A DNA stretch of 64,000 bases from Variovorax guangxiensis. Lineage in GTDB: Bacteria; Pseudomonadota; Gammaproteobacteria; Burkholderiales; Burkholderiaceae_C. This document shows, one piece after another, positions 1-16,612 of the stretch. A model generated the notes under the pieces. That model was not told the DNA's origin. It was given only the letters and a program-made list of their open reading frames with translations, and searched no databases. The translations under genes and the position numbers were made by a program. The first letter of the stretch is position 1. Every line of letters starts with the position of its first letter. Location: positions 310,001 to 374,000 of the forward strand of contig NZ_RXFT01000005.1 of the NCBI RefSeq assembly GCF_003952165.1, in the 5' to 3' direction.

Positions 1-1297
1 GCACATTGCCACCCGAGAGGCTGCGGATCGGCGCGCCCTCGCCCCGGGTCTTCACGCCGTATTCGGCGATCCACTCGCGCGCCCTGCTGCGCCAGTACGG
101 AAAGCTCAGCACGCCGGCTCGCGACAGCGGCGGCAGGTCGAAGTCGCGCAGCGCCATGTTCTCCGCGACGCTCAGGTCGCCGACGCATGCGTTGCGCAGC
201 GGCTCCTCCGGCAGGCTGCGCACCTTCAGCTCGCGGTTCTCGGCGCGGCGTGCCGCGTAAGGTTGACCCATCACCGTGACCTTGCCTGCAAGGCGCGGGC
301 GCTGCCCCACCAGCGCTTCGACCAGCTCGCGCTGCCCGTTGCCCGAGACGCCGGCCACGCCGAGGATCTCCCCCGCACGCACCGACAGGCTCAGCTCGTG
401 CAGCGCCAGCGTGCCGCGATCGCCCTGCGCCTTCAGTCCTTGGACCTCCAGCGCGACCGGCGCGCCGGCGGGCACGGGCGTTCTTGCAACGCAAGCCTGC
501 GTCGCAGGCGAGGCAGCCACCTGTTCGCCCCCCATCATGGCCTGCGCCAGCTGCGCCGGGCTGGTCTCGGCCACGCGGCAATGGTGCACCGCCTTGCCGC
601 GCCTGAGCACCGTCACGCTGTCGGCGTACGACATCACCTCGCGGAACTTGTGCGTGATGATCAGCACCGTGCACAGCCCGCTGCGCGCGAACTCGCGCAC
701 GTGGCCCAGCACCTCGTCGGCCTCCTGCGGCGTGAGCACCGAGGTCGGCTCGTCGAGGATCAGCAGGCGCGGCTTCAGGTAGAGCTGCTTGAGCAGTTCG
801 AGCTTCTGCTTCTCGCCCGCCGCAAGTTCGGCAGGCCGCGCGTCGAGGTCGAGGCTGAACGGCGTGGTCGCCAGGAAGGCCTCCAGCTCCGCGCGCTTGC
901 TCTTCCAGTCGATGACGGCGGGCGTCTTTCCACCGGCCAGCAGCAGGTTCTCGGCCACCGTCATGCCCGGCGCCAGCGTGAAGTGCTGGTAGACCATGCC
1001 GATGCCCAGGGCGCGCGCCACGATGGGGTTGGCGATGTCCTGCTCGCGCCCGTCGATGAGGATGCTGCCCTCCTCCGCGCGCTGGAAACCCGCCACGCAC
1101 TTCACCAGCGTGCTCTTGCCCGCGCCGTTCTCGCCGAGCAGCGCATGCACCGTGCCGGGCTCGACGCGCATCGTCACGCGGTCCATCGCGGTGAAGTCGC
1201 CGAAGCGCTTGGTGAGCTCGTAGGTGTCGAGCCCCAGCGCGCCGCTGCCCGCCGGCAGGCCGCCGATGGCGTGAGAGGAAGAAGACGCGGCGCCCAT
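1..1297 (-). CDS. ABC transporter ATP-binding protein, nucleoside/simple-sugar type (C-terminus cut by window edge)
   Basis: ATPase of a BMP-type (nucleobase/nucleoside, YufO/RbsA-like) importer; it would power the two permeases at 2010-3997 at the inner membrane. Reading leftward from the ATG at 1297, a first nucleotide-binding domain shows Walker A GENGAGKST near residue 50, the signature-like LAAGEKQKLEL and Walker B LLILDEPTSVLTPQEA. A second domain follows; its signature (RSLSGGNV) reaches base 1, so about 432 codons of a usual 510-530 are present. The start lies 5 bp after the stop of the isochorismatase-fold gene, so it is the last visible gene of the operon. A BMP-type transporter (AtzT and partners) also accompanies the cyanurate genes of Pseudomonas sp. 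ADP, as I recall. The substrate is inferred, not seen. Confidence 0.9.
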   Translation of the reverse strand, partial: MGAASSSSHAIGGLPAGSGALGLDTYELTKRFGDFTAMDRVTMRVEPGTVHALLGENGAGKSTLVKCVAGFQRAEEGSILIDGREQDIANPIVARALGIGMVYQHFTLAPGMTVAENLLLAGGKTPAVIDWKSKRAELEAFLATTPFSLDLDARPAELAAGEKQKLELLKQLYLKPRLLILDEPTSVLTPQEADEVLGHVREFARSGLCTVLIITHKFREVMSYADSVTVLRRGKAVHHCRVAETSPAQLAQAMMGGEQVAASPATQACVARTPVPAGAPVALEVQGLKAQGDRGTLALHELSLSVRAGEILGVAGVSGNGQRELVEALVGQRPRLAGKVTVMGQPYAARRAENRELKVRSLPEEPLRNACVGDLSVAENMALRDFDLPPLSRAGVLSFPYWRSRAREWIAEYGVKTRGEGAPIRSLSGGNV

Positions 1298-1302
1298 GGC
1301 GG

Positions 1303-2004
1303 TCAGCCGAGCGCCGCCAGCAGCGCCTGCGAGGTGGCATGCGCGCCGAACACGCCGCCCTGCATGGTGATCATCTTCAGCGCGGCGAGGTGGTTGCCGT
1401 AGTCGGTGGCCGCCGTGCAGTCCGACAGCAGCAGGCATTCGAAGCCGCGGTCGTTGGCGTCGCGCATGGTGGTGTGCACGCACACGTCGGTGGTGATGCC
1501 CGCGAGGATGATGTTCTCGATGCCGCGCGTGCGCAGGATCAGCTCGAGGTCGGTCGCATAGAACGAGCCCTTGCCGGGCTTGTCGATGATCACTTCGCCC
1601 GGCAGCGGCGCCAGCTCGGGAATGATTTCCCAGCCGGGCTCGCCGCGCACCAGGATGCGCCCGCACGGCCCGTCGTCGCCGATGCCCACGCCGTTGGCGC
1701 CGATCTGCCGCGAGCGCCAGCGCTTGTTGGCCGGCAGGTCGCCGAGGTCGGGCCGGTGGCCTTCGCGCGTGTGGATGATGTGATAGCCCAGCGGCCGCAG
1801 CGCCGCCAGCGTGCGCGCGATCGGCTGGATGGGCGCCTGCACCAGGGAGAGGTCGTAGCCCATCACGTCCACGTAGCCGCCCTTGCCGCAGAAGTCGGTC
1901 TGCATGTCGATGACGATGAGCGCCGTGTTGTCGGGGCGCATGTTCGCGTTGTAGGGCCAGGCGTAGGGCTCGGCGGCGACGGTCTTTGTTGTCGTTGTCG
2001 TCAT
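1303..2004 (-). CDS. biuH: Isochorismatase-fold cysteine amidohydrolase, biuret hydrolase-like
   Basis: Likely cytoplasmic amidohydrolase converting biuret to allophanate and ammonia. The 233-residue protein has the family triad in order: Asp33 in [10 protein letters not shown], Lys142 in DKPGKGSF, and Cys175 in [13 protein letters not shown], preceded by the usual non-prolyl cis-peptide region. The N-terminal WPYN and the segments [18 protein letters not shown] and [10 protein letters not shown] closely match my memory of Rhizobium leguminosarum BiuH, which has its triad at 36/142/175. It sits 5 bp downstream of a permease stop and in one operon with an allophanate hydrolase, which would use its product. 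Start: ATG at 2004 with AGGA upstream. Alternatives are a ureidoacrylate or N-carbamoyl amidohydrolase, but similarity and context favour biuret or a close ureide. Confidence 0.8.
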
Positions 2005-2009
2005 GGCGT

Positions 2010-2933
2010 TCAGTTCCTTGTCGATGAGAGTTCGCCGGGGCTGCCTGCGGCGGCGCTTCCCGGCCTGCAGGTGAACACCAGGATCACCAGCGTGAGCACA
2101 TAAGGCACCGTGTTGAAGAGGTGGTAGCCCCAGCCGATGCCGATGGACTGCAGCGCCGGGCCGATGGCGCCAGCGCCGCCGAAGAGCAGCGCCGCGCCCA
2201 CGCAGCGCAGCGGGCTCCAGCGCGCGAAGATCACCAGCGCCACCGCGATCAGGCCCTGGCCGCTGGAGATGCCTTCGTTCCAGCTGCCCGGATAGAAGAG
2301 CGTGAGCGACGCGCCGCCCAGCCCGGCGATGAAGCCGCCCGCCGTGGTGGCCGCGATGCGCAGGCCCGAGACCGAATAGCCGAGCGCGCGCGTGGCCTGC
2401 GCTGAGTCGCCCGCCATGCGCACCAGCAGCCCGACACGCGTGCGCGCAAAGCCCCACCACAACAGCACCGCGAGCGCCACGCCGACGGGCACCAGCGCAT
2501 TGAGCTGCAGGGCCGAGCGCACGACGGGGTTGTCGCTCCAGAAGCCCAGCGGGATCGCCGGGATCTGCGGCGCCTGCGGCTGGATCAGCGGCTTGCCCAG
2601 GTAGAACGCGAGCCCCGTGCCCAGCAGCATCAGCGCGATGCCGGTCGCCACGTCGTTCACGCGGTCGAGCGAGCACAGCAACCCGTGCAGCAGCGCGAGC
2701 GCGGCGCCGGCCGCCGCCCCGATCAGCACGCCCAGCCAGGCCGAGTCGGTGAGGTAGGCACCGCCGAAGGCCGCCATGGCCGACAGCACCAGCACGCCTT
2801 CGAGGCCGAGGTTGATGCGGCCCGACTTCTCGGTGAGGCACTCGCCCAGGCTCACGAAGAGAAAAGGCGCGCCGACGCGCAATGCGCCGCCGACGATGCC
2901 GGCGACCAGCGCGATCCACTGGTCGGCCGTCAT
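2010..2933 (-). CDS. ABC transporter permease, BMP-linked nucleobase/nucleoside type (second permease)
   Basis: Inner-membrane permease of the BPD_transp_2 family, 307 residues with about eight or nine hydrophobic segments. It pairs with the larger permease just upstream and with the duplicated ATPase at the left edge, forming the usual BMP importer order: binding protein, permease, permease, and ATPase. The conserved segment [19 protein letters not shown] near residue 30 is typical of the smaller permease of YufPQ-like systems. The ATG at 2933 overlaps the stop of the first permease by 4 bp (ATGA), which argues for translational coupling. The longer in-frame reading upstream of this ATG is antisense-like sequence inside the other permease and is not coding. 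Confidence 0.9.
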
Positions 2934-3997
2934 GTGTAGCTCCTTGCTTCCGGAAGCATGCGGTCGCCGAACTTCTTCCAGTCGACCGTGCGCAGGCCTT
3001 CGCTCGCGAGGATCAGCACGAAGGCGATGCCCTGCAGCACCAGCACCGACGCATCGGGCAGGCCCAGCCGGCGTTGCAGCAGGCTGCCCGCCGCGCCGAA
3101 GCCGCCGAACAGGATGGCCACCGGCACGATGGCCACCGGGTTGTGCCGCGCGATGAACGACACCAGGATGCCCGCGTAGCCGTAGCCCGCGATCAGCGAT
3201 GCGTTCGCGTTGGTGTGCACCGCCGCCACCTCGATGGCGCCTGCGAGCCCCGCGCATGCGCCACCGAGCCCGCAGGCCGACAGAATGAGCCGCGTGGCTG
3301 GCAAGCCGACGAGCTGCGCGGTGCGCGGATTGCCGCCCACCACCCGCACCGAGAAACCCGAGGCCGTGGCGCGCAGCCACCAGCCGAGCCCGAGGCAGGC
3401 CACCACGCCCACCACCAGGCCCCAGTGCACGTCGGAACCGCCGATGCCGCCGATCAGCAACCCGTCACCCAGCGCGTAGGTCGAGGGCTTGTTGAGACTG
3501 GCCGGGTCGCGCAGCGGCCCTTCGACCAGGTGCTTGAAGATGCCGATGGCGATGTAGGCCAGCAGCAGGCTGCTGATGGTCTCGTTGATGCCTCGATACT
3601 GGCGCAGCCAGCCCGCGAGCACGATCCACAACGCGCCCGCGAGCGCACCGGCAATGCACACGGCCACGGTGCCGACGACGTTGCCCGGCAGCGGCACCGC
3701 ATGCGCCAGCGCCGCGCAGGCCAGCCCGCCCAGCACCAGCGCCCCCTCGCCGCCGATCACGATGAGACCCGCGCGCGCGGGCAGCGCCACGCACAGCGCG
3801 GTGAGCATCAGCGGCGCCGCACGCTGCAGCGTGTTCTGCCACGAGAACCAGTCGCCGAACGCGCCCTTGAACAGCGTGGCCCACACCTCCACCGCGTCGA
3901 TACCGGCGAAGGCCACCACCAGCCCGAACAGCAGCAGCGCCGCCGCGATGGCGAACACCGGCAGGGCCAGTTCCTTGAAGAGCGCGGGGCGCAGCAT
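2930..3997 (-). CDS. ABC transporter permease, BMP-linked nucleobase/nucleoside type (first permease)
   Basis: Inner-membrane permease of the BPD_transp_2 family, 355 residues, matching the longer permease of nucleoside importers. Hydrophobic segments begin at residue 10 ([19 protein letters not shown]) and continue through the protein. The segment [14 protein letters not shown] corresponds to the conserved EAA-like/ligand path region, and [14 protein letters not shown] is the common permease motif of this family. It starts 19 bp after the BMP binding-protein gene and overlaps the next permease by 4 bp. Its substrate should be that of the BMP protein: a nucleobase-like or ureide compound. No regulatory site of its own is visible. 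Confidence 0.9.
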
Positions 3998-4016
3998 GAC
4001 GGTACCGGGGTGTCGG

Positions 4017-5141
4017 TCAGACGCTTCCGACGACGCCTTCGACGAGGTAGTTCATCTTCTCGAGCTCCAGGTCGGTCTGCTTCAGGACCTTGCCCGCCGG
4101 CACCACCACGGCGCCCTTGTTGTCCTTGATGCCGTCCTTGAAGATGTCGAAGCTGCCCGCGATCATCTTCGCCTTGATCTCGTCGGCGTGCTTCTTCGCG
4201 GCGTCCGGCACCATGGGGCCGTAGGCCGACATCTTCACGTAGCCCTCCTTCAGGCCGCCGCGCAGGAAGTTGGGATGCGGCTTGCCAGCCTGCGCGGCCT
4301 CGATGGCGGTCTTGTAGGCGGTGAGCCAGTTCCATTCGGCGCCGGTGAGGTACGCATTGGGCGCGAGCTTGGCCTGGCTGGCGTGGTAGCCGCAGACCAT
4401 CTTGCCGCGCTTGGCGGCCGTCTCGACCACCACCTTGGGGCCGTCCACGTGCATCGTGAACACGTCGCAGCCCTGGTCGGCGAGGCTGTTGGTGGCTTCG
4501 GCTTCCTTCACCGCCATCGACCAGTCGCCCGTGAAGATCACGCTGCAGGTGATGTTCGGCTTGACCGAGCGCGCGCCGAGCGTGAAGGCGTTGATGTTGC
4601 GCAGCACCTGCGGAATGGGCTTGGCGGCGACGAAGGCGATCTTGTTGCTCTTCGTCATGTGCGCGGCGATCACGCCGTTGAGGTACTGGCACTCGTCGAT
4701 GTAGCCGAAGAAGCTGCCGACGTTCTTGGGGTGCTTGCCCTCGGTCCAGAGGCCGCCGCAGTGCGAGAAGCGCACGTCGGGGTTCTTGGGCGCGACCGCG
4801 AGGATGTGCGGATCGAAGTAGCCGAACGAGGTGGGAAAGAGCAGGCCCGCACCGTCCTGCGAGATCATGCCGGTCATGGTCTTCTGCACGGCCGCCGTCT
4901 CGGGCACGTTCTCTTCCTCCACCACCTTCACGCCGGGCAGCTTCTTGATCTCGGCGGCGGCCATGGCGTGCGCCCGGTTGTAGCCGTAGTCGTCGCGCGC
5001 GCCGACGTAGATCACGCCGACGGTGAGCGGCTTGGGCTTGGCCTGGGCGGCGGCAAGCGCGCTCCAGCTTCCGAGGCCGCCCGCCGCGCCGAGCGCGGCC
5101 AGGGTCTTGAGGGAATCGCGGCGATTGAATTGGCTGGTCAT
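4017..5141 (-). CDS. BMP family ABC transporter substrate-binding protein
   Basis: Periplasmic binding protein of the basic membrane protein (BMP/PnrA) family, which elsewhere binds nucleosides and purine bases; AtzT of the atrazine plasmid belongs here. The protein has 374 residues. Its N-terminus NRRDSLKTLAALGAAGG followed by ALAAAQA looks like a Tat-type signal peptide with cleavage near residue 33. The mature part begins KPLTVGVIYVGARDDYGYN, the family start (family form: GxxxDxSFN), and holds the typical GVIAAHMTKSNKIAFVAA hinge segment. It is followed at once by two permeases, and the ATPase closes the set. Upstream ACGGAG at 7 nt supports the ATG at 5141. Ligand unknown; the surrounding amidohydrolases point to a ureide or triazine-like ring. 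Confidence 0.9.
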   Translation of the reverse strand: MTSQFNRRDSLKTLAALGAAGGLGSWSALAAAQAKPKPLTVGVIYVGARDDYGYNRAHAMAAAEIKKLPGVKVVEEENVPETAAVQKTMTGMISQDGAGLLFPTSFGYFDPHILAVAPKNPDVRFSHCGGLWTEGKHPKNVGSFFGYIDECQYLNGVIAAHMTKSNKIAFVAAKPIPQVLRNINAFTLGARSVKPNITCSVIFTGDWSMAVKEAEATNSLADQGCDVFTMHVDGPKVVVETAAKRGKMVCGYHASQAKLAPNAYLTGAEWNWLTAYKTAIEAAQAGKPHPNFLRGGLKEGYVKMSAYGPMVPDAAKKHADEIKAKMIAGSFDIFKDGIKDNKGAVVVPAGKVLKQTDLELEKMNYLVEGVVGSV

Positions 5142-5202
5142 GACGTACTCCGTTGCTGGAAAACAGGTTGAAGGACTGAAGGAAAAAGAAGTGCCTGGGC
5201 GC

Positions 5203-5586
5203 TCAGCCGAGCAGGCTGACGTGCGCCGAGACCACGCGCCAGCCCTCGGGCGTGCGCATCCAGGTCTGGCTCTGGCGGCCGCTTCGCTCTGCGCCTTCGC
5301 GGCGGAACTCGCAGTTCGCGGTGGCGAAGTCGCGCCCGTAGGTGGTGATGACGGTCACGAGCAGTTCGCGCGCAAGGCCCTGTGAAGGGCGCGATGCGCG
5401 AAAGGCCCGGATCTCGTCGTAGCCGTAGAGGTTTTCGGTGGCGCCATAGCGCAGCGTGGTCGGGCTGTTCCAGAACAGCTCGTCGAGCACCTCGACCTTG
5501 TTGTTCACCAGCGCGTCCTCGTAGCGGGCGAAGGCGGCCTGCACTTCGGACAGCACGTCGGGCAGGTCGATGTCGCTTGCGTTCAT
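5203..5586 (-). CDS. atzH: AtzH/HpxZ-like protein (DUF3225, NTF2-like fold)
   Basis: Small 127-residue cytoplasmic protein of the HpxZ/AtzH family (DUF3225), with the SnoaL/NTF2-like pattern [18 protein letters not shown] near residues 38-55 and AHVSLL at the end. AtzH of the cyanurate pathway is reported as an enzyme acting on 1,3-dicarboxyurea to give allophanate; HpxZ is part of oxalurate catabolism in Klebsiella. The ATG at 5586 overlaps the stop of the amidase by 4 bp, exactly the AtzG-AtzE-AtzH (HpxX-Y-Z) order. Presence of an allophanate hydrolase in the same operon favours the carboxybiuret role over oxalurate. Family assignment is firm; the exact substrate is inference. Confidence 0.8.
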
Positions 5587-7058
5587 GCGGGTGTTTCCTC
5601 CGAACTGAGTGCGGCGACCGGCGCATGCGCCACGCCCGCGGCTTCGAGTGCCGCGGCCACGCGCAGCACGAGGTCTTCGCGCCACGGCGCGGCGATCACC
5701 TGCACGCCGACCGGCAGGTCGGGCTGGTTCGGCTGGTTGGCGTGCGTGCCCCAAACCGGCACGGCGCACACCGGCAGGCCGATGCACGAGAAGGGCTGGG
5801 TCAGCAGGCCCATGTTGGGCCGTACCGGCAGCACCTGGCCGTTGACCTCGAAGCTTTCCGCGCCGATGGGCGTGGCCGCGCTGGGCGTGGCCGGGGCCAG
5901 CAGGATGTCGTAGCGCGCTAACAGGCGCGCCACCGCCTCGGCATACACACGGCGCACGCGCTGCGCGCGCGCCACCCAGGCGGCCGGCAGCAGCGCTCCG
6001 GCCAGGAAGCGGTCGCGCGACAGCGGCTCGAAGTCTTGCGCGCGGCGGCGCAGGTCATCCAGGTGCAGCGCGGCGCCTTCGGCGTTGGTGATGAGGAAGG
6101 CGGCGGCCCGCCCGGCCTCGACCAGCGGCAGTTCCACGCTGGCCCGCGAGACGCCCGAGCCCAGCGCATCGGCGACCAGATCGACGGCGGCCAGCGCCTG
6201 GGCGCCGGCACGCTGGTGGAAATAACCGCCGAGCACGCCGATGCGCAGGCCGCGCGCGCCCTGCGCCAGCACGCCTGATACAGGTTCGACGGCCCGCTGC
6301 GCGCAGCCGGGGTCATGCGGGTGGCCAGCGTCTTCTGGGCCCTGCAGCGCGTCGTAGACCAGCGCCAGGTCGCGCGCCGAACGGGCGAAGGGGCCGAGGT
6401 GGTCCAGGCTGGACACGAACGGGAAGCTCCCGGTGCGCGGCAGCCGCCCGAACGTGGGCTTGAGGCCGAACACGCCGCACAGCGACGCGGGCACGCGGAT
6501 CGATCCGTTGGTGTCGGAGCCCAGCGCGAGCGGCACCTGCCCGGCCGCCACCGCGGCACCCGATCCACCCGACGAGCCGCCCGCGATGCGCCGGAGGTCG
6601 TGCGGGTTGCGCGTGGGGCCTTCATGGCTGTTCTCGGTGGTGAAGCCGTAGGCGTACTCGTCCATGTTGAGCGCGCCCACCAGCACGGCGCCCGCACGCT
6701 CCAGCCTTCGCACCAGCGCGGCGTCGGCGCGCGCGGGCGCGGTCTGGCGCTCGATCTTCGAGCCCGCGAGCGTGGGCAGGCCGGCGATGTCGAACAGGTT
6801 CTTCACCGCGAACGGCACGCCGAGCAGCGGCAGTTCGCGGGTGCGCGCGCCGTTCGCCGAAGCCAGCGAGGCATCGACCTGCGCCGCGCGGCGCAACGCA
6901 CGCTCCCCCAGCACGGCAGTGAATGCGTTGACCCGGCCGTCGGTGGCTTCCACGCGCTCGAGGCTGGCCCGCACCAGCGCCGCGGCGCTCGTGGCGCCCG
7001 CGCGCACCGCTTCGGCCATGGCGGTCGCGTCGCGCAGGAGCAGGTCCGCGGCGCTCAT
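5583..7058 (-). CDS. atzE: Amidase-signature hydrolase, AtzE/HpxY-like
   Basis: Amidase-signature enzyme of 491 residues with the complete Ser-cisSer-Lys triad: Lys86 in [10 protein letters not shown], the glycine/serine stretch [14 protein letters not shown] at 160-173, and nucleophile Ser186 in [13 protein letters not shown]. The Asn in GSDTNGS is shared with AtzE-type enzymes, as I recall. AtzE deaminates 1-carboxybiuret with its small partner AtzG; the Klebsiella homologue HpxY works in oxalurate breakdown. Here the partner gene overlaps by 4 bp upstream and the AtzH homologue by 4 bp downstream. It is clearly distinct from the other amidase of the operon (allophanate hydrolase). GatA is excluded by the absence of gatB and by the AtzG-type partner. 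Confidence 0.85.
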
Positions 7059-7261
7059 GCGTCCTTCTCCTCGGGCGCCACCGGCGCGAAATGCACCGCC
7101 GGCTCGGCCGACATGGCCAGCGGTACCGACTCCACCAGCGCGGCGAACTCGGCCGCGAGCGCGAAGTAACGCAGCACGCCGGGGCGGTGCGCGGGCGACA
7201 GGGGCAACGCGAGCGCCGCCGCGGCGGCGTCGACGTAGCTCTCGATCTGCGTGGGTGTCAT
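7055..7261 (-). CDS. atzG: AtzG/HpxX-like small partner of the amidase (DUF4089)
   Basis: A 68-residue helical protein, MTPTQIESYVDAAAAALALP..., with the DUF4089 pattern (a short N-terminal helix, then RPGVLRYFALAAEFAALVESVPL). In Pseudomonas sp. ADP, AtzG is a GatC-like subunit that forms a heterotetramer with AtzE and is needed for stable enzyme. It is encoded directly before the amidase with a 4-bp ATGA overlap, which fits a 1:1 complex. It starts 22 bp after the stop of the ABC ATPase gene. Easily missed by gene finders because of its size. Confidence 0.85.
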   Translation of the reverse strand: MTPTQIESYVDAAAAALALPLSPAHRPGVLRYFALAAEFAALVESVPLAMSAEPAVHFAPVAPEEKDA

Positions 7262-7283
7262 GGACGGTTCCTCGGGTCGATGC

Positions 7284-8117
7284 CTAGCGGCGGACTTCGC
7301 GCTGGAAGATGTCGAGACTGAGCTTCTTCATGGCGACGAAACTCCCGGTGCTCAGCGTTTCCACCGTGCGGGGGCGCGCATCGCCGTAGTGCAGGATCTC
7401 CGCGACCTTGGTGGGCCGCTTGGTCAGGAGCAGCACCTCGTCGGCGAGGTACACCGCCTCCTCGAGGTCGTGCGACACCAGCAGCATCGTGGTACCGGTC
7501 TGCATGAACACCTCCTGCAGCTTCTCGCGGATGAAGAGCGTCATCTCGAAGTCGAGCGCGGAGAAGGGCTCGTCGAGAAACAGCACCTCCGGGTTGGGCG
7601 CGAGCGCGCGCATGATCGACGCCGTCTGCTGCTGGCCGCCCGAGAGTTCGTACGGGTAGCGCGCGAGGTCGAACTTCACGTCGAAGGAGGCCACCAGCTC
7701 TTCCATGCGCCGGTCGACCTCGGCCTTGCTGCGCCCTTCGAGCTTCAGCGGATAGGCGATGTTGTCGATGGTCCGCATCCACGGGAACATCGCCTCGCGA
7801 TAGTTCTGGAACACGTAGCCGATCTTGGTGTCCGAGCGCCGCTTGCCGTCGAACAGGATCTCGCCCGAGTCGATGGGAATGAGCCCCGCGATCATGTTGA
7901 TCAGCGTGGACTTGCCGCAGCCGTTGGGACCGAACACCGAGACGATCGCGTGCTTCGGGATGTCGAGGTCGAAGTTCTCGTACAGCGGCCAGCCCGCGAA
8001 GTACTTGGTGAGCCCTCGGATGGTGATGTGCGTGCCTGCCGGGCCGGGTTTGAACACGGGCCTGGGCACGTCGGCGTACACCGGGCCGTTGACGACGATG
8101 TCCTGCGTGACTTTCAT
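7284..8117 (-). CDS. ABC transporter ATP-binding protein, nitrate/sulfonate/taurine type (SsuB/TauB-like)
   Basis: ATPase subunit, 277 residues, single nucleotide-binding domain. Walker A is GPNGCGKST near residues 66-74, the signature YELSGGQQQTASIMRAL near 150 and Walker B EVLFLDEPFSALD near 170; the H-loop is in LLVSHDLEEAVYLAD. It follows the permease gene with a 4-bp overlap and precedes the AtzG homologue. With the permease (8114-8941) and the binding protein (8947-9954) it forms a complete three-gene importer of the SsuABC/NMT1 class, the second uptake system of this operon. The residues FRTID-like PWMRTIDNIAYPL follow the Q-loop as usual in the group. Confidence 0.9.
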   Translation of the reverse strand: MKVTQDIVVNGPVYADVPRPVFKPGPAGTHITIRGLTKYFAGWPLYENFDLDIPKHAIVSVFGPNGCGKSTLINMIAGLIPIDSGEILFDGKRRSDTKIGYVFQNYREAMFPWMRTIDNIAYPLKLEGRSKAEVDRRMEELVASFDVKFDLARYPYELSGGQQQTASIMRALAPNPEVLFLDEPFSALDFEMTLFIREKLQEVFMQTGTTMLLVSHDLEEAVYLADEVLLLTKRPTKVAEILHYGDARPRTVETLSTGSFVAMKKLSLDIFQREVRR

Positions 8118-8941
8118 CTTCCGCTCCAGTGCACGATGCGGCGTTCGGCGACCAGGAAGAGGATGTTCAGCGCGTAGCCCAGCGCACCCGCCGAAAGAAT
8201 CGCCGCGTACATGCTCTTCACGTTGAGCACCTGCTGCGCGTCGATGATCCGGTGGCCGAGCCCCGTGTCGGAGCCGATGAACATCTCGGCCACGATGACG
8301 ATCACCAGCGCCATCGACACCGCCGAGCGCAGGCCCACGAAGCTGGGCTGCAGGCTTTCCCACACCAGCACGTCCTTGAAGATCTGCCAGCGCGATGCGC
8401 CCATGACGCGCGCCGCCATCACGCGCTGCTTGCGCGCGTTCATCACGCCGTAGGCGCTGTTGAACACCACGATGAGCAGCGCGCCGAAGGCCGCGATGGC
8501 CACCTTGTTGACGTCGCTCACGCCGAAGATCAGCAGGAACAGCGGGATCAGCGCCGACGAAGGCGTGGAGCGGAAGAAGTCGATCAGGAACTCCACGCTG
8601 CGGTAGGCGCGCTCGTTGCTGCCCAGCAGCACCCCCAGTGGCATGCCGACCACCGCCGCGATGGCGAAGGCCTGCACGGTGCGCCACACGGTCATGGCGA
8701 AGTCGGTGAGCAGCGGGCCGCCGGCCAGGCCTGTGATGAGCGCCGCGACGGTGTCGGCCGGCGTGGGCAGCAGGATCGGCTTGATGAAGCCGAGCCGCAC
8801 CACCAGGTCCCACACGATGAACAGCACCACCGGTCCGATGAAGGGCAGCAGGCGGTCGCGCAGCGGCGGCTTCGGCGCGGCGGTGGCCGCGCTGGCCGGC
8901 GGGGTCCACGGCGCGGCCGTGGTCGAGCTTGCTTCGGCCAT
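8114..8941 (-). CDS. ABC transporter permease, nitrate/sulfonate/taurine type (SsuC/TauC-like)
   Basis: Inner-membrane permease of 275 residues with six or so hydrophobic spans and the binding-protein-dependent transport motif: VMGASRWQIFKDVLVWESLQ corresponds to the EAA loop that contacts the ATPase. An N-terminal Ala/Pro/Thr-rich cytoplasmic stretch of about 30 residues precedes the first span (LLPFIGPVVLFIVWDLVV). The ATG at 8941 lies 5 bp after the stop of the binding protein; its stop overlaps the ATPase start by 4 bp. Function is uptake of the ligand captured by the NMT1-type binding protein. Confidence 0.9.
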   Translation of the reverse strand: MAEASSTTAAPWTPPASAATAAPKPPLRDRLLPFIGPVVLFIVWDLVVRLGFIKPILLPTPADTVAALITGLAGGPLLTDFAMTVWRTVQAFAIAAVVGMPLGVLLGSNERAYRSVEFLIDFFRSTPSSALIPLFLLIFGVSDVNKVAIAAFGALLIVVFNSAYGVMNARKQRVMAARVMGASRWQIFKDVLVWESLQPSFVGLRSAVSMALVIVIVAEMFIGSDTGLGHRIIDAQQVLNVKSMYAAILSAGALGYALNILFLVAERRIVHWSGR

Positions 8942-8946
8942 GGTCT

Positions 8947-9954
8947 TCAGGCCTTGTAGAGCAGCGTGTCCACCGCGACCTTCTTCTCGAAGATGCCTTT
9001 CTCGGTGAACAGGTCGTAGAACTTCTGGAAGTACGCGACGTCGCTGGGCTTGAACTCGTTGTAGAGCATGTACGACGCGAGCGGCACCTCGGCGGTGAGC
9101 TTGCCTTCGATGGCGGTGTAGCCCTTCATGAACTGGCGTGCCTCGTCGGGCTTGCTGCGCACCAGCTCCACGCCGCGTGCGTAGGCGGCTATGTACTTCT
9201 TCGCGACCTCGGGGTTCTTCCTGATGAAGTCGCTGGTGAGGCTGGCCGCGCCGCCGTGCCACGGCGCCATCGGGTCGCCGAGGATGTACTTCGCGACCAC
9301 GCCGGCCTCGACGACGCGCGTGGTGCCGTTCATGCGGCCCACGGTGCCGGTGGGCTCCAGCGTGTAGCAGGCGTCGACCTGGCCCGCGACCAGCGCAGCC
9401 ACGTGCTGGCCGATGGGCAGCTCGCTCACGGTCGCGCCCTTGGCGCCCGCGCGCTCCAGCATGGTCTTGCACAGCGTGACGTTCTGGATGCCGGGGCCCG
9501 ATGCGACCTTCTTGCCGGCCAACTCGGCCACGGACTTGACGGGGCTGTCCTTGGCGACGATGAATTCGTCGAGCACGTACTTCGCGTTGCTCGGGTTGGT
9601 ACAGAAGATCTTGAACAGCCCTGGCTGCGCGATCTCGCCGATCGCGAGATTGGCGGAGCCCGTGCCGTTGGCGCTGCCGTCGCAGCGGCCCGCGAGCATG
9701 CCTTCCATCACCTGCTGCGCGCCGGCGAACTTCAGCGGCTCCACGTCCAGGCCGGCCTCCTTGAAGTAGCCCTTGTCGACCGCCGCGAAGAACGGCAGGC
9801 CGGCAGCCACCGGCCAGAAGCCGATGCGCAGCTTCGCAGCCGCGCCCTGCGCGCGCACGATGGCGGGCGCGGCCAGCACTGCCATGCCCGCGGCGCCGGC
9901 TTGCAGCAGCTGGCGTCGCCGGCGTGCGGCGGGAGAGTGTTGTTGGATGCTCAT
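8947..9954 (-). CDS. ABC transporter substrate-binding protein, NMT1/SsuA type
   Basis: Periplasmic binding protein of 335 residues. The N-terminus has a run of arginines (RRRRQLLQAGAAGM) and a hydrophobic core ending in IVRAQ, a probable Tat or Sec signal cut near residue 35. The mature start AKLRIGFWPVAAGLPFFAAVDKGYFKEAG is the typical NMT1/THI5-like opening, and FAGAQQVMEGMLAGRCDG is the next conserved block. This class takes up nitrate, sulfonates, taurine, pyrimidine precursors and, in the triazine context, possibly ring compounds. It lies 14 bp after the allophanate hydrolase stop and leads the importer genes. Confidence 0.88.
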   Translation of the reverse strand: MSIQQHSPAARRRRQLLQAGAAGMAVLAAPAIVRAQGAAAKLRIGFWPVAAGLPFFAAVDKGYFKEAGLDVEPLKFAGAQQVMEGMLAGRCDGSANGTGSANLAIGEIAQPGLFKIFCTNPSNAKYVLDEFIVAKDSPVKSVAELAGKKVASGPGIQNVTLCKTMLERAGAKGATVSELPIGQHVAALVAGQVDACYTLEPTGTVGRMNGTTRVVEAGVVAKYILGDPMAPWHGGAASLTSDFIRKNPEVAKKYIAAYARGVELVRSKPDEARQFMKGYTAIEGKLTAEVPLASYMLYNEFKPSDVAYFQKFYDLFTEKGIFEKKVAVDTLLYKA

Positions 9955-9968
9955 CGGAACTCCTCTGA

Positions 9969-11699
9969 TCAGTTGGAACTCGGGGTGGCGCGGCTCGCGA
10001 CGTAGGCGCGCCAGCCGCCGTGATGGCTCACGTCCTGCGCGCCGTCCAGCGCGTGGCCTTCGCAGATGAAGCCCTTCACCCAGCTGCCGTCGGCCAGCTC
10101 CACGCTGCCGAGGCCCAGCGGCGGCGGGATCAGCGCGAGGAAGCTGCCGACCTGCGCGAGCGGCACGGCCCACACTTCCAGCGCGATGGTTGCGCCCTCC
10201 TCGCCTTCGGCCACGCGACGCAGTCCGGGCTTGGGCGGCACGGTGCCCGGCAGCGCGTGCAGCCTGTAGGCGGGCGAGGTGGTGGTGGCGCGCACCAGGG
10301 TGGCGCCGCGCTCGGTCAGTTGGCTGTTGAGCGGCATGCCCGAGAGATGCGCACCGACGACGGCGATCGGCAAGGTGCCGGCACCCGCCGCCGCGAGCCC
10401 CGGAATCGCACGCGGCGGCGGCAGAGGCTCGCCGGTCGCGCCCTGCGCAAGGCCGGTGGCGTGATGGAAGCGCTGGCCCAGCTCGGCGAGTGCGAGATCG
10501 CTGCCGCAGGGGCCGATCAGCGTGATGCCGAAAGGCAGGCCATCCGCGCGCAGGCTGCTGGGCACCGAGAGCGCGGCGTAGTCGAGCAGGTTGACGAAGT
10601 TGGTGTAGGCGCCGAGGTTGCGGTTGAGCGCGACCGGATCGGCGCGCATCTGCTCGCGCGTGTAGTGCGTGGGCGCGGTGGGCACGAGCAGCAGGTCGAT
10701 GTCGCGCCACATCGGCTCGACTTTCTGCGCGATGGCGCGCAGCCTGGTCTGGGCGTCGAACACGTCGGCTGCGCTGTAGCCCTGTCCGCTCGCGAGGATG
10801 CCGCGCACGGGCTCGACGACGTCGTCGGCATGCGCGTCGAAGAACTCGCGCACCGCGGCGTAGCGCTCGGCGACGAGCGCGCTTTCGTAGAGCATGGCGG
10901 CCGCTTCCGCGAGCGGCGCGTAGGCGATGGTGACGGGCGTGCCGCCCATGGCGAGCAGCCGCGCGACCGCGTCGCCGAAGGCCTGCTCGGCGGCGGCATC
11001 GCCGAAGAAGCTCAGCCGGTCGGGCACGCCGAAGCGGAAGCGCGCGGGCAGCGGCTCGCGGCGCAAGTCGATCTCGCGGGAGTACGGATCGCGCGCGTCG
11101 TGGCCGGCGGCTGCGAGCAGCACGTCGACCGCGGTGGCGACGGTGCGCGCGAAGATGGAGACGCAGTCGGCGCTCTGCGCGGCGGGCACCACGCCGAAGG
11201 CGCTCAGCAGGCCGCGCGAAGGCTTCAGGCCGACGATGTTGTTGAGCCCGGCCGGCACGCGGCCGGAGCCGGCGGTGTCGGTGCCCAGGGCGAAGTCGGC
11301 CTCGCCCGTGGCCACCACACAGGCCGAGCCCGAACTGGAGCCGCCCGATACATAGCGCGCGTCGAAAGCGTTGGGCACCTCGCCATAAGGAGAGCGGGTG
11401 CCGTTCAGGCCGCAGGCGAACTGGTCGAGATTGGTCTTGCCGGCCAGCAATGCACCGGCTTCGAGCAGGCGCTGCACCACGGTCGCGTGCACCTCGGGCA
11501 GGCGCTCGAAGGCCGGGCAGGCGGCGGTGGTGGGCACGCCGGCCACGTCGATGTTGTCCTTGACAGCGAAGCGCAGGCCCGCGAGCGGCAGGGCGAAATC
11601 CAGCGCCACGGCGGCGTGCGTGTGTGCCACAGGCGAGGCGAACCTGGCGATCCAGGCCGCTTCTGGCGTTCCGCTTTTCGGGTTTTCTTCGTGCACCAT
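9969..11699 (-). CDS. atzF: Allophanate hydrolase (AtzF/DUR1-like amidase)
   Basis: Cytoplasmic enzyme hydrolysing allophanate to ammonia and CO2, the last step of biuret, cyanurate or urea-amidolyase pathways. With the chosen start it has 576 residues: an amidase-signature domain with Lys47 in FAVKDNIDVAG, VSGGSSSGSACVVATG near 117-132 and nucleophile Ser145 in GTDTAGSGRVPA, followed by the C-terminal domain specific to allophanate hydrolases (GSVELADGSWVKGFICEG near the end). It is the first gene of the 12-gene operon. Starts are also possible at 11717 and 11744; 11699 was chosen because GGATG lies upstream and homology begins after it. Two-domain architecture separates it clearly from AtzE. 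Confidence 0.9.
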   Translation of the reverse strand: MVHEENPKSGTPEAAWIARFASPVAHTHAAVALDFALPLAGLRFAVKDNIDVAGVPTTAACPAFERLPEVHATVVQRLLEAGALLAGKTNLDQFACGLNGTRSPYGEVPNAFDARYVSGGSSSGSACVVATGEADFALGTDTAGSGRVPAGLNNIVGLKPSRGLLSAFGVVPAAQSADCVSIFARTVATAVDVLLAAAGHDARDPYSREIDLRREPLPARFRFGVPDRLSFFGDAAAEQAFGDAVARLLAMGGTPVTIAYAPLAEAAAMLYESALVAERYAAVREFFDAHADDVVEPVRGILASGQGYSAADVFDAQTRLRAIAQKVEPMWRDIDLLLVPTAPTHYTREQMRADPVALNRNLGAYTNFVNLLDYAALSVPSSLRADGLPFGITLIGPCGSDLALAELGQRFHHATGLAQGATGEPLPPPRAIPGLAAAGAGTLPIAVVGAHLSGMPLNSQLTERGATLVRATTTSPAYRLHALPGTVPPKPGLRRVAEGEEGATIALEVWAVPLAQVGSFLALIPPPLGLGSVELADGSWVKGFICEGHALDGAQDVSHHGGWRAYVASRATPSSN

Positions 11700-11830
11700 C
11701 TTCAGGCATCCAAACATGTGTACAAGTTGAGATGCAAGCGGCATGCCAGCGCAAGCGCACCGTGGCGCAGATCGGAATCGTGCGGGGATTGGCCCGCTCC
11801 CCTCGGGTTTTTGGCTCCCTCCCCCGGGCT

Positions 11831-11950
11831 TGGCTCCCTCTCCCCTCGGGGAGAGGGTTGGGGTGAGGGCAGGTGCGGAAGATGAAGCGCGACTCTTATC
11901 TAGAGGCCGTAGCCCTCACCCCCGCCCTCTCCCCACGGGGCAGAGGGAGT
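11831..11950. repeat. Pair of inverted palindromic elements between the M48 protease and atzF
   Basis: Two related elements face each other. The left one contains a perfect 10-bp stem hairpin, ccctctcccc-tc-ggggagaggg at 11836-11857, followed by ttggggtgagggc. The right one, 11912-11947, is its near reverse complement (gccctcacccccgccctctc) and has its own hairpin at 11925-11947 with one bulge. The arms 11851-11870 and 11912-11931 match at 18 of 20 positions, so they could pair into one large structure. It lies downstream of the M48 gene and upstream of atzF, where it may stop read-through into the ureide operon. It resembles short intergenic repeats common in proteobacterial genomes. Confidence 0.75.
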
Positions 11951-11958
11951 CATGCAAG

Positions 11959-12822
11959 TCAGCTCTTCCTTGCGTCGCGGTAAAGCTTCTCGACCTTCGG
12001 CAGGTTCGCTTCGAGCTTCGAGATGCGGTCTGGACCGCTCGGGTGCGTCGAGAGGAAGCTCAGGCCGCCCTGATTCCTGGACGCCGTGGCCATCTTCTGC
12101 CACAGCGAGACCGACGCCTTCGGGTCATAGCCCGCCCGCGCCGCCAGTTCGAGCCCCACGAGATCGGCCTCTGTCTCGTCGCTGCGGCTGAACTTGAGGG
12201 TGATGAGCTGCGTGCCGGCGCGCGCGGCCAGGTCGCCTACCTGCCCCCAGCCGAGCAGCTGCGCACCGATGGAGAGCGCGGCGCCCGTGCCCGCGCTCTT
12301 GGCCAGGCGGGCGCGTGCATGCTCGCGCAGGGCGTGGGCCATCTCGTGGCCCATCACCATCGCGACCTCGTCGTCGGTGAGCTTCAGCTGGTCGAGGATG
12401 CCGGTGAAGAAGGCGATCTTGCCGCCGGGCATGCAGAAGGCGTTGATCTGCTTGCTGCCGATCAGGTTGACCTCCCACTTCCAGTCTCGGGCGCGCGAAT
12501 TCCACGGCATCGCGAACGGAATGAGCCGCCTGGCGATGGCCCGCAGGCGCTGCAGCTGCGGATTGCTCTCGCCCGCGAGCGCCCCCTTGGCGCGTGCCTG
12601 CTCGAGCAGCTGGCCGTACTGCTGCACGCCGGCCGTCTCGATCTGCTCGACCGGCACGATGTTCCGGGCCACCGAGGCCTTGCCCACGTCGACCTGCGCC
12701 AGGGCCGGCTTCGCGAGAACCGCGCCGGCCGCCGCCAGCAGGAAGGCTCGCCGCGGATGCCACGCGGAAGCTGCGGAGGGGGCGGGAACGTCGGTGAAGG
12801 GGCGATCGCATCGTGTGCACAT
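11959..12822 (-). CDS. M48 family zinc metalloprotease, exported
   Basis: Probable periplasmic or membrane-associated protease of 287 residues (BepA/LoiP/Oma1-like family M48) involved in envelope quality control. A twin-arginine-like leader HPRRAFLLAAAGAVL precedes ALAQ near residue 43. The zinc site is HEMAH at 159-163 with the third ligand in ETEAD at 216-220; the Gly-rich segment AFCMPGGKIAFFTGIL is the conserved beta edge before the motif. No TPR domain follows, so it is shorter than BepA. It is transcribed away from ampG, with about 77 bp between the starts, and ends at the inverted-repeat pair. Confidence 0.9.
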   Translation of the reverse strand: MCTRCDRPFTDVPAPSAASAWHPRRAFLLAAAGAVLAKPALAQVDVGKASVARNIVPVEQIETAGVQQYGQLLEQARAKGALAGESNPQLQRLRAIARRLIPFAMPWNSRARDWKWEVNLIGSKQINAFCMPGGKIAFFTGILDQLKLTDDEVAMVMGHEMAHALREHARARLAKSAGTGAALSIGAQLLGWGQVGDLAARAGTQLITLKFSRSDETEADLVGLELAARAGYDPKASVSLWQKMATASRNQGGLSFLSTHPSGPDRISKLEANLPKVEKLYRDARKS

Positions 12823-12899
12823 AGGAGCGGGATGATAGGAACAAATGAAGACAAGAAGCCCGGGAACCCGGGCCGTCGCTCATGGACAATCCAGGGCAC

Positions 12900-14267
12900 A
12901 TGTCCGCCTCGCCCGCAGAAACCCCCACGCCCACCTCACCGCCCTGGCGCGACGCGCTGAAGGTCTACCTGGAGCCCGCCACCCTGCGCATGCTGGCGCT
13001 GGGCTTCTCGGCCGGGCTGCCGCTGCTGCTGGTGCTGGGCACGCTGAGCTTCCGGCTGCGCGAAGCGGGCATCGACCGCACCACCATCGGCTACCTGAGC
13101 TGGGTCGGGCTGGCCTACGGCTTCAAGTGGGTCTGGGCGCCGCTGGTCGACCGGCTGCCGCTGCCGCCGCTCACCACCTTGCTGGGACGCCGCCGCGGCT
13201 GGCTGCTGCTGGCGCAGTGCATGGTCATCGCCGGGCTGGCGGGCATGGCGGTCAACGATCCGCGCCACGGGCTCACACCGCTGGTGTGGTGCGCGCTGCT
13301 GGTGGCCTTCGGCTCGGCCACGCAGGACATCGCGCTCGACGCCTTCCGCATCGAATCGGCCGAGGCACGCAAGCAGGCCGCGCTGGCCGCCGCCTACCAG
13401 ACAGGCTACCGGCTCGCGATGATCTGGGCCGGCGCCGGCGTGCTGTGGGTCGCGGCCTGGGCCGAGGTGGCGCCCGCTGCAGCGGCCACGGGCGCGGCGG
13501 CCTATCAGAACGGCGCCTGGAAGACGGCCTACCTGGTCATGGCGGCATCGATGGCCATCGGCGTGGTCACGGTGCTGCTTTCGCCCGAGCCGGTGCCGGG
13601 CGCCATGCCCAAGGCCCGGACCGCCGCCGAATGGCTGCGCAACGTGCTGATCGAGCCCTTCGCCGATTTCATACGCCGCTACAAATGGCAGGCGGTGCTG
13701 ATCCTCTCGCTGATCGCCATCTACCGCATCAGCGACGTGGTGATGGGCATCATGGCCAACCCGTTCTACGTGGACATGGGCTTCACCAAGGACCAGGTGG
13801 CCTCGGTCAGCAAGATCTACGGCGTGATCATGACGCTGGCGGGCGCCTTCGTCGGCGGCGTGCTGTCGATGCGCCTGGGCGTGATGCGCGTGCTGATGCT
13901 CGGCGCCGTGCTCAGCGCCGCCAGCAACCTGCTCTTCGCCTGGCTGGCCACGCGCGGGCACGACCTGACTGCGCTGATCGCGGTGGTCTCGGCCGACAAC
14001 CTGGCCGGCGGCATCGCCTCGGCGGCGTTCATCGCCTACCTGTCGAGCCTCACCAACATCAGCTACTCGGCCACGCAGTACGCCCTTTTCAGCTCGCTGA
14101 TGCTGCTGCTGCCGAAGTTCCTGGCCGGCTACTCGGGTGCCTTCGTCGACGCCTACGGCTACAGCAGCTTCTTCGTCGGCACCGCCCTGCTGGGCGCGCC
14201 GGTGCTGTTGCTGGTGGCGCTGGCCTCGCGGCTGACGGCGACCACAAGCCCACAGGGCCGTCAATAG
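12900..14267 (+). CDS. ampG: AmpG-type muropeptide MFS transporter
   Basis: Inner-membrane permease that imports anhydromuropeptides released during cell-wall turnover, feeding peptidoglycan recycling and, where present, beta-lactamase induction. The protein has 455 residues and about 12 spans. The first segment LRMLALGFSAGLPLLLVLGTLSFRLREAGI is highly typical of AmpG, as are SWVGLAYGFKWVWAPLVDR and GSATQDIALDAFRIE. An in-frame ATG at 12882 is possible, but 12900 has AGGG at 6 nt. It is divergent from the M48 protease gene. Length is close to the shorter AmpG forms of beta-proteobacteria. Confidence 0.9.
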   Translation: MSASPAETPTPTSPPWRDALKVYLEPATLRMLALGFSAGLPLLLVLGTLSFRLREAGIDRTTIGYLSWVGLAYGFKWVWAPLVDRLPLPPLTTLLGRRRGWLLLAQCMVIAGLAGMAVNDPRHGLTPLVWCALLVAFGSATQDIALDAFRIESAEARKQAALAAAYQTGYRLAMIWAGAGVLWVAAWAEVAPAAAATGAAAYQNGAWKTAYLVMAASMAIGVVTVLLSPEPVPGAMPKARTAAEWLRNVLIEPFADFIRRYKWQAVLILSLIAIYRISDVVMGIMANPFYVDMGFTKDQVASVSKIYGVIMTLAGAFVGGVLSMRLGVMRVLMLGAVLSAASNLLFAWLATRGHDLTALIAVVSADNLAGGIASAAFIAYLSSLTNISYSATQYALFSSLMLLLPKFLAGYSGAFVDAYGYSSFFVGTALLGAPVLLLVALASRLTATTSPQGRQ

Positions 14268-14429
14268 GGCCTGGGCCTTATAGGAAACGGCCGACGGTGC
14301 GCGGGCCGCGCAACTGGTAGGCTGTGCCGGTATACATTCGTTTCTTTCAATTTTCTTTCCCCGCCGCGCGCCTCGCTTCCTGCCGGCGTCCATCGTCCGC
14401 CTGACCGACAGCCCAACACCTACAAGATC

Positions 14430-15632
14430 GTGCCGTCCCGAATTTCTCCTCTTCAGATAAGTGCCTACACGGCCACCAGCGCCGTCGGTGTCGGCAAGGA
14501 AGCGCTGGCCGACGCGCTCGCGCAGTCGCGCAGCGGGCTGCGCGCCAACGATTTCGGCGACGCGCCGCTGCCCACCTGGATCGGCCGCGTCGAAGGCGTC
14601 GAGGAGGTCCGGCTCCCCGAATCGCTCGCGCAGTGGGACTGCCGCAACAACCGGCTGGCCTGGATGGGCCTGCAGGCCGACGGCTTCATCGATGCCGTGG
14701 CCGCGGCGCGCGAGAAATACGGCGCATCGCGCATCGCGCTGGTGCTGGGCACCTCCACCGCGAGCATCGGCGAGACCGAGCTGGCGTACACGCAGCTCGA
14801 CGCGCAGGGCATGTTCCCGCCCGGACAGCGCCGCCCCGAGGTGCACACACCGCATTCGCTTGCCATGTTCGCGCAGCAGCTGCTGGGCATCAGCGGACCC
14901 AGCGAAACGATTTCCACCGCCTGCTCGTCCAGCGCCAAGGTGTTCGCCTCGGCCGAGCGGCTCATTCGCCTGGGCCTGGCCGACGCGGCCGTGGTCGGCG
15001 GGGCCGACACGCTGTGCGGCAGCGTGCTGTTCGGCTTCAACTCGCTCGAACTTGTATCGAGCGAGCCGTGCCGGCCCTTCGACGCCGCGCGCAAGGGCAT
15101 CAGCCTGGGCGAGGCCGCGGGTTTCGCGCTGGTCGAGCGCGTGCAGACCGGCGCCGATGCCGCGCCGCTGCATTTGCTGGGCTACGGCGAAGCGAGCGAC
15201 GCGCATCACATGTCGACGCCCCACCCCGAGGGCCTGGGCGCCGAGCGCGCGCTCGACGAGGCGCTGGCGCGCGCCGGCCTCGAACCCGAGGCGATCGACT
15301 ACATCAACATGCACGGCACCGCGAGCCAGAAGAACGACGAGGTCGAGGGTGCGCTGGTGGCGCGCCGCTTCCCGGCACGCACGCACGCCAGCTCGACCAA
15401 GGGCTTCATGGGCCACACGCTGGGTGCGGCGGGCATCGTCGAGGCGGTCATCAGCCTGCTGGCGATCGAGCGCGGCCTGATGCCGGGCACGGTCAACACG
15501 CACACGCTGGACGAGGGCTTCGGCCCGCAGATCCGGCTGGAGCCCGCGCACGGCGAAGTGCGCTATGCGCTGAGCAACTCCTTCGGCTTCGGCGGCAACA
15601 ACTGCTCCCTCGTTTTCGGCAAGGCGGCATGA
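14430..15632 (+). CDS. Beta-ketoacyl-[ACP] synthase, FabF-like (aryl-polyene/polyketide type)
   Basis: Ketosynthase condensing malonyl-ACP with an acyl chain. The 400-residue protein has the full Cys-His-His set: Cys165 in ISTACSSSAK, His in NMHGTAS, and His in STKGFMGHTLGAAG; NSFGFGGNN is the conserved C-terminal loop. Start is GTG at 14430. A TATACA box at 14331 may belong to its promoter. The next gene overlaps by 4 bp and encodes a chain-length-factor-like partner, the usual pairing in aryl-polyene and related pigment clusters. No other genes of such a cluster (dehydratase, ACP, ketoreductase) are nearby, so the pair stands alone. Primary fatty-acid FabF is unlikely given the short, divergent N-terminus and the partner. 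Confidence 0.85.
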   Translation: MPSRISPLQISAYTATSAVGVGKEALADALAQSRSGLRANDFGDAPLPTWIGRVEGVEEVRLPESLAQWDCRNNRLAWMGLQADGFIDAVAAAREKYGASRIALVLGTSTASIGETELAYTQLDAQGMFPPGQRRPEVHTPHSLAMFAQQLLGISGPSETISTACSSSAKVFASAERLIRLGLADAAVVGGADTLCGSVLFGFNSLELVSSEPCRPFDAARKGISLGEAAGFALVERVQTGADAAPLHLLGYGEASDAHHMSTPHPEGLGAERALDEALARAGLEPEAIDYINMHGTASQKNDEVEGALVARRFPARTHASSTKGFMGHTLGAAGIVEAVISLLAIERGLMPGTVNTHTLDEGFGPQIRLEPAHGEVRYALSNSFGFGGNNCSLVFGKAA

Positions 15633-16495: not shown

Positions 16496-16561
16496 GCCCA
16501 CGGCCACTGCAACCGGCGCTATGCTTTTCGCAGCATGGCCGGTTGACAGGGGTTGCCGAGG

Positions 16562-16576: not shown

Positions 16577-16612
16577 GGAGCGTTCAAGCCCTCTTGCTCC
16601 CGGTGGACGACC

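Follow-up and report, generated by a model that had tools for sequence, protein, structure and literature searches.

A candidate triuret and biuret utilisation operon in Variovorax guangxiensis and its kinship with the atrazine lower-pathway genes

Introduction

Triuret and biuret arise in the breakdown of urea and uric acid, and triuret is known both as a uric acid oxidation product and as an impurity of urea fertiliser. Here we describe an operon at the left end of a 64,000-nucleotide stretch of the Variovorax guangxiensis genome (assembly GCF_003952165.1, contig NZ_RXFT01000005.1, positions 310,001 to 374,000; "the window") which, judged by its genes, is probably a nitrogen-scavenging system for triuret and biuret.

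The trtA-biuH-atzF cluster of Herbaspirillum and rhizobia (PMC7948467) has in common with this operon the hydrolases TrtA and BiuH with their active-site residues and a BMP-type ATP-binding cassette (ABC) importer. The product of TrtA, 1-carboxybiuret, has a half-life of ∼20 min and decays to biuret (PMC7948467). At the Herbaspirillum frisingense locus AtzF is also in the cluster, as here; neither this locus (L074) nor that of Rhizobium leguminosarum WSM1325 (L088) has atzGE in the stretch viewed, whereas the window operon has atzGEH behind a sigma-54-like element. A 2025 floodplain paper reports trtA-biuH-trtB-atzF with bmpA-nupABC in ammonia oxidisers.

The pADP-1 genes atzDGEHF of Pseudomonas sp. 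ADP (PMC6219798) resemble the window operon in their atzG-atzE-atzH order and in having atzF, with identities of 59% for AtzE, 65% for AtzH, 51% for AtzF and 40% for AtzG. Unlike pADP-1, the window operon has no AtzD, carries TrtA and BiuH, begins with atzF and has a gene for a GntR rather than a LysR regulator. AtzEG consumes 1-carboxybiuret, and AtzH was proposed to turn its product into allophanate (PMC6219798). Section 14 of the same paper describes atzF-ABC-atzGEH-ABC-amidase clusters in Variovorax, Rhodoferax, Methylibium and other Comamonadaceae and Burkholderiales, apparently the same operon family as ours; they were described before TrtA was known, and that account does not identify the amidases or the entry substrate. 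The hpxXYZ genes of Klebsiella (oxalurate) encode a homologous small subunit, amidase and DUF3225 protein; they represent a separate clade of the AtzE family, and the 9 kb viewed contain no AtzF, TrtA or BiuH.

Results and Discussion

Gene content and predicted route

The initial annotation recorded an unbroken run of twelve minus-strand genes at 1-11744, and the gene coordinates bear this out: all twelve are present, separated by short gaps or by 4-bp overlaps (AtzG/AtzE, AtzE/AtzH, NMT permease/ATPase and the two BMP permeases). They run in the order atzF, an SsuA/NMT1-like importer (three genes), atzG, atzE, atzH, a BMP importer (three genes), biuH and the BMP ATPase gene. Both ends needed revision. 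On the left, the ATPase gene continues past base 1 and is followed after 36 bp by the start of trtA and then by gntR, which overlaps trtA by 4 bp, making 14 genes in one direction; on the right, atzF most likely starts at 11699 and not at 11744, because the latter falls inside a conserved sigma-54-like element (see below). Since the arrangement recurs across the family, it is real and not a product of chance. The window belongs to contig C38 in a genome of 7.18 Mb; negative coordinates in the following list lie to its left, window base 0 being L001:20000.

9969..11699, minus strand: atzF, allophanate hydrolase with amidase and allophanate hydrolase C-terminal domains (TIGR02713, 754 bits, cut-off 511; start set by the promoter element)
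8947..9954, minus strand: SsuA/NMT1-like ABC importer, substrate-binding protein (SsuA family, 100 bits, below the cut-off of 163.5)
8114..8941, minus strand: SsuA/NMT1-like ABC importer, permease (closest model match)
7284..8117, minus strand: SsuA/NMT1-like ABC importer, ATPase (closest model match)
7055..7261, minus strand: atzG, AtzG-like small subunit of 1-carboxybiuret hydrolase (PF13318, 50 bits, cut-off 24)
5583..7058, minus strand: atzE, AtzE-family amidohydrolase, presumed catalytic subunit of 1-carboxybiuret hydrolase (NF006631, 672 bits, cut-off 461; 6C62 match; trees)
5203..5586, minus strand: atzH (DUF3225/HpxZ), presumed 1,3-dicarboxyurea type, with Tyr22, Arg46 and Arg66 (NF033625, 212 bits, cut-off 135; residues)
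4017..5141, minus strand: BMP/PnrA-type ABC importer, substrate-binding protein (model match)
2930..3997, minus strand: BMP-type ABC importer, permease 1 (model match)
2010..2933, minus strand: BMP-type ABC importer, permease 2 (model match)
1303..2004, minus strand: biuH, biuret hydrolase (NF050097, 417 bits, cut-off 370)
1..1297, running on to -298, minus strand: BMP-type ABC importer, ATPase (model match)
-1006 to -335 (L001:18994-19665), minus strand: trtA, putative triuret hydrolase (structure matches, residues)
-1773 to -1003, minus strand: gntR, regulator, beyond the window edge

The AtzF-, AtzG-, AtzE-, AtzH- and BiuH-like names and the two importers of the initial annotation stand, the enzymes scoring above the curated model cut-offs and the importer subunits below those of their closest models. 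By model score and residues the isochorismatase-like hydrolase inside the window is BiuH. Its best solved-structure match is 6AZO, the R. leguminosarum BiuH (400 bits vs 211-216 for TrtA chains), and it keeps 12 of 12 BiuH-type residues (D36, F41, Y47, Y53, K142, K145, S147, D173, C175, T200, Q215 and V218, with 47, 147, 175 and 200 numbered by offset). The second such hydrolase, outside the window, looks like a canonical triuret hydrolase (TrtA): it matches 6XIX best (321 bits vs 199-222 for BiuH chains), reaches 257.5 bits on the BiuH model, under the cut-off of 370, and is 70% identical over the aligned segment, with the same numbering, to the Herbaspirillum enzyme. Positions that tell TrtA from BiuH are listed by Tassoulas et al. 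(PMC7948467); all 15 residues checked match TrtA, including F35, N41, A134, E160, Y187, Q202, I205 and the triad D24, K129 and C162, and at the six discriminating positions F35, N41, A134, E160, Y187 and I205 the BiuH counterparts are Y, Y, S, D, T and V.

The best solved match of AtzE is the pADP-1 enzyme (6C62, 539 bits), and AtzG and AtzH also match the pADP-1 proteins best; for AtzF other allophanate hydrolases match first and the pADP-1 protein fifth. AtzE, with an AtzG gene adjacent, lies outside the HpxY clade, yet its subclade differs from that of the assayed pADP-1 AtzE. AtzH carries Tyr22 and Arg46, both implicated by mutagenesis in 2018 (PMC6219798), and the arginine pocket including Arg66. 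Thus the placement of the BiuH and AtzE homologues, on which the initial annotation had made its reading depend, went in its favour: BiuH passes its model and residue checks, and AtzE is outside the HpxY clade.

As the product of TrtA is the substrate of AtzEG, the operon reads as a path from triuret to ammonia, and the presence of TrtA beyond the window edge makes triuret, not cyanurate, the likely entry compound. TrtA, AtzEG, AtzH and AtzF would together suffice for the whole path, and BiuH would deal with biuret. The two ABC importers would bring ureides into the cell; TrtA would strip ammonia from triuret to give 1-carboxybiuret, AtzEG would deaminate this to 1,3-dicarboxyurea, AtzH would decarboxylate the latter to allophanate and AtzF would free the remaining ammonia, while BiuH would recover biuret, whether imported or arising by self-decarboxylation of carboxybiuret. 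For V. guangxiensis itself we infer these substrates, their transport and the regulation described below.

Linkage of TrtA and AtzE

Our genus sample comprised the window genome and 100 further genomes, within a sample of 198. TrtA was found in 82 of these 101 genomes and AtzE in 45 (44 over the model cut-off and the G022 fragment, which falls below it; the G037 fragment was left out). Every one of the 45 AtzE genomes also has TrtA, within 10 kb on the same strand in 41 and on different contigs in 4; outside the genus, four genomes of the same 198 have AtzE and no TrtA. In order to avoid choosing loci by TrtA we searched 399 genomes of the family with the pADP-1 AtzE. It matched in 83, and TrtA lay within 20 kb in 60 of them (on the opposite strand in 10) and on another contig or far off in 8; for comparison, the base rate of TrtA was 4/18 among family genomes of other genera. 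The follow-up of this survey covered 78 genomes and counted as TrtA only matches below E 1e-90, so that G608 (2.6e-75, in the BiuH range) was scored as TrtA-less. Our 80 TrtA loci are the best 80 of at least 573.

The initial annotation considered the joining of BiuH with a complete EGH-F set in one operon to be notable. This combination proved widespread in the family, and similar clusters were described in 2018 (PMC6219798). In the literature we searched we found no paper that joins TrtA to AtzGEH in one operon, though a prior mention is possible. Nine family genomes with TrtA and AtzE have no BiuH-range match (8 in the family survey, and G102), and direct BiuH searches of G102, L009 (a contig of G667), L039 (a contig of G890) and L021 (outside the sample) gave TrtA as best match, at 48-51%. 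In these nine genomes, therefore, the TrtA product would dead-end at biuret without AtzGEH. Within the genus, BiuH occurs in 81 genomes, all of them TrtA-bearing, the sole TrtA genome without it being a 73%-complete assembly, and it is present in 35/35 sampled genomes that have atzH and no AtzE.

The atzGEH cassette and Arg66 of AtzH

No AtzE is listed for 37 of the 82 TrtA-bearing genus genomes, but in 34 of the 37 an atzH is retained, 6-7.5 kb upstream of trtA. When the window operon is compared with three close AtzE-less relatives, eleven flanking genes show 87-96% DNA identity and atzH 79-82%, and atzGE is absent; against a relative with atzGEH, the values are 85.5% for atzE and 89% for atzH. 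In our AtzH alignment Arg66 is present in 87/87 sequences from loci with AtzE and in 2/64 from TrtA clusters without it, whereas neither set shows any variation at Tyr22, Arg46, Arg63 or Arg73. The two exceptions (L036 and L077, kept in the 2/64 and left out of the tree change count) end with their contigs at the point where AtzE would be expected from related loci, and one AtzH cut by a contig end (G010) is outside the alignment. Within the genus the split is 20/20 sampled genomes with AtzE against 0/35 without. Five second AtzH copies, apart from trtA, also have Arg66; this fits the tie to AtzE in four of the five genomes, since the TrtA operon there has AtzE and no adjacent AtzH. The best AtzH tree requires six changes, with Arg66 matching the AtzE state throughout its rows.

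Section 13 of PMC6219798 places Arg66 in the pocket around docked dicarboxyurea and does not single it out as catalytic. The correlation suggests a substrate switch in AtzH. On our reading, Arg66 would be needed for the second carboxylate of dicarboxyurea, and the AtzH of AtzE-less clusters would act on carboxybiuret, which has one carboxylate. The variant atzH that holds the atzGEH slot in close relatives probably encodes a decarboxylase turning carboxybiuret into biuret, with BiuH then carrying the flux.

A Cupin_7-type gene lies near trtA at four loci (L071, L075, L082 and L088) where no AtzE or AtzH was found, and might encode an alternative carboxybiuret-processing enzyme. The slot after trtA holds the Cupin_7 gene in some clusters and an AtzH-like gene in others, and either could be TrtB.

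Kinship with the pADP-1 genes

The initial annotation proposed kinship with the s-triazine lower pathway, and the AtzE trees agree. In a 71-row tree, many rows of which were chosen by TrtA, the pADP-1 AtzE falls in a 17-row clade (support 100/100) with 15 TrtA-linked rows; after TrtA-less rows had been added and 14 near-duplicates dropped, its clade comprised 33 rows (100/100), 20 of them TrtA-linked on recount, with both kinds interleaved. The clade is mainly Comamonadaceae. Grouping of the pADP-1 AtzE with HpxY was rejected (approximately unbiased test, p-AU 0.0009). Its nearest rows are Ramlibacter monticola (TrtA-linked, 79%) and G644, a genome of another genus of the family, with support of 99/92 for the three. 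At locus L170 of G644 there is a chromosomal LysR-atzD-atzG-atzE-atzH cluster with the pADP-1 layout and 76-77% identity to pADP-1 in AtzD, AtzE, AtzH and LysR, and no atzF in the 20 kb viewed; the best matches to the pADP-1 AtzF in the examined set were 48-54% identical.

These results indicate that the pADP-1 atzGEH genes probably came from the Comamonadaceae gene pool, a direction of gene flow that we infer. The suggestion that the operon may show the ancestral route is thereby favoured as regards the gene pool, but the closest chromosomal match is the G644 cluster and not the window operon. We put forward only tentatively, at slightly less than an even chance, the following joint proposal: that an interchangeable cassette sets the fate of carboxybiuret (atzGEH with an Arg66 AtzH, or an Arg66-less AtzH decarboxylase), and that TrtA-fed AtzGEH would be the natural job of the set later joined to AtzD in atrazine degraders, by way of a Comamonadaceae LysR-atzD-G-E-H intermediate like that of G644. 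A further locus, L148 of G100, has an AtzD-family gene, an NMT-type importer and an AtzH with Arg66; the 20 kb viewed there contain neither TrtA nor AtzE.

Promoter and regulation

Two elements lie ahead of atzF:

11734..11749, minus strand: sigma-54 (-24/-12) promoter-like element TGGCAT-N5-TTGCA, starting 50 bp before the atzF ATG at 11699
11715..11726, minus strand: operator-like inverted repeat CTTGT-AC-ACAAG, here with one mismatch, presumed GntR site (site search)

The sigma-54 (RpoN) promoter consensus is TGGCAY-N5-TTGCW. The strict motif was found in the same region in all 23 loci with upstream sequence (a 24th has only 30 bp upstream and is outside this count), compared with 8 of 4800 base-shuffled upstreams, and across the 23 loci it is followed by CTTGTACACAAG or a near copy. 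It was also found in 7 of 9 further family loci. Allowing up to one mismatch, a search of bases 1-20000 of the window and of the 20 kb to its left gave no second copy of the inverted repeat. We suggest that transcription would start from this nitrogen-limitation promoter and that the GntR protein, whose gene closes the operon, would gate it by binding at the inverted repeat. Upstream of the promoter element, at 11800-11940, are intergenic G+C-rich repeats of the CCCTCTCCCC...GGGGAGAGGG type.

Neighbouring genes and related loci

To the left of gntR there are two genes on the other strand, one that looks like a periplasmic receptor gene, without an NCBIfam match, and one for an FAD monooxygenase; a LysR gene on the operon strand follows. 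Putative gatC-, gatA- and gatB-like genes (homologues of atzG and atzE), named from their start sequences and sizes, lie at L001:5255-8557, ∼11-15 kb left of the window. In many related operons the BMP permease gene and biuH are separated by a formamidase-like gene (CN_hydrolase, ∼340 aa), for which the 5-bp gap here (2005-2009) leaves no room. An atzF-BMP importer-formamidase-biuH-ATPase-trtA-gntR set lies between IS1 elements on an Enterobacter hormaechei plasmid (L086, NZ_CP058178.1), and TrtA matches of the same 64.8% identity occur on Klebsiella and Citrobacter plasmids.

Alternative explanations

Several observations weigh against the explanation given above. The window AtzE is 59-62% identical to the assayed pADP-1 AtzE and belongs to a separate, mainly Variovorax subclade, and strict nesting of the pADP-1 AtzE among TrtA-linked rows was not upheld (p-AU 0.226). 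Nor were several independent losses of Arg66: supported branches force one change, and one origin gave p-AU 0.065 (L129, L115 and L119 dropped, rows thinned at 90% identity). The second AtzH copy of G100 has Arg66 in a genome with no AtzE match. The sigma-54-like element was not found in 2 of the 9 further comamonad loci, nor in any of 13 more distant loci with enough upstream sequence. TrtA was not found in 15 of the 83 AtzE genomes of the family, which rules out a tie of AtzE to TrtA only; AtzD was not found in 14 of the 15 either. We viewed 13 of these TrtA-less loci (all but G730 and G846): in six the AtzF-NMT importer-AtzGEH-GntR cluster is complete, and in a seventh atzH alone is missing, so a different substrate for AtzGEH is possible. 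The 15 genomes lowered our confidence in the triuret route and raised that in two separate routes within one operon, whereby the BMP importer, TrtA and BiuH would degrade triuret via biuret, the NMT1-like importer and AtzGEH would degrade another ureide, and the two would meet only at AtzF. The 37 TrtA-bearing genus genomes without a listed AtzE, and the fact that the AtzE family also takes in the oxalurate-linked HpxY, point the same way. We nevertheless regard two routes as unlikely, given the nine TrtA and AtzE genomes without a BiuH-range match and the exchange of atzGEH for an atzH variant at an unchanged position, an exchange consistent with a common intermediate.

A chromosomal cyanuric acid (s-triazine) lower pathway that recently lost AtzD seems very improbable to us. 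It is true that 15 of the 82 genus genomes with TrtA carry AtzD no more than 15 kb away from it, and that in R. leguminosarum bv. trifolii WSM1325 an annotated atzD lies between biuH and the ATPase gene; however, AtzE in the genus accompanies TrtA (45/45) and not a nearby AtzD (9/45). The initial annotation had advised looking for AtzD left of base 1. The 7.18-Mb genome yielded no AtzD-family gene, which disposes of the idea that the AtzD of a cyanurate pathway sits just beyond the window edge, and this absence is meaningful because the same search matches 39/198 genomes; the control of an earlier search had matched nothing. We consider it hardly credible that AtzGEH acts in oxalurate or allantoin breakdown as HpxXYZ does, even though AtzH matches the NCBI HpxZ model and AtzE is 52% identical to a Klebsiella HpxY: HpxY forms a separate 100/100 clade with the window AtzE outside it, the operon carries AtzF, TrtA and BiuH, and there is no gamma-glutamyltransferase (HpxW) among its 14 genes, the rest of the genome not having been searched.

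Significance

Triuret degradation thus remains our preferred reading of the operon. What atzGEH clusters do beyond atrazine breakdown was an open question in the 2018 paper (PMC6219798), to which the operon offers triuret as a candidate answer. The cassette swap and the Arg66 correlation would reduce the question of DUF3225 substrates to one residue. The chromosomal G644 cluster appears to be related to the pADP-1 operon even in its LysR regulator, and the window operon may show where the atrazine lower-pathway genes of pADP-1 came from.

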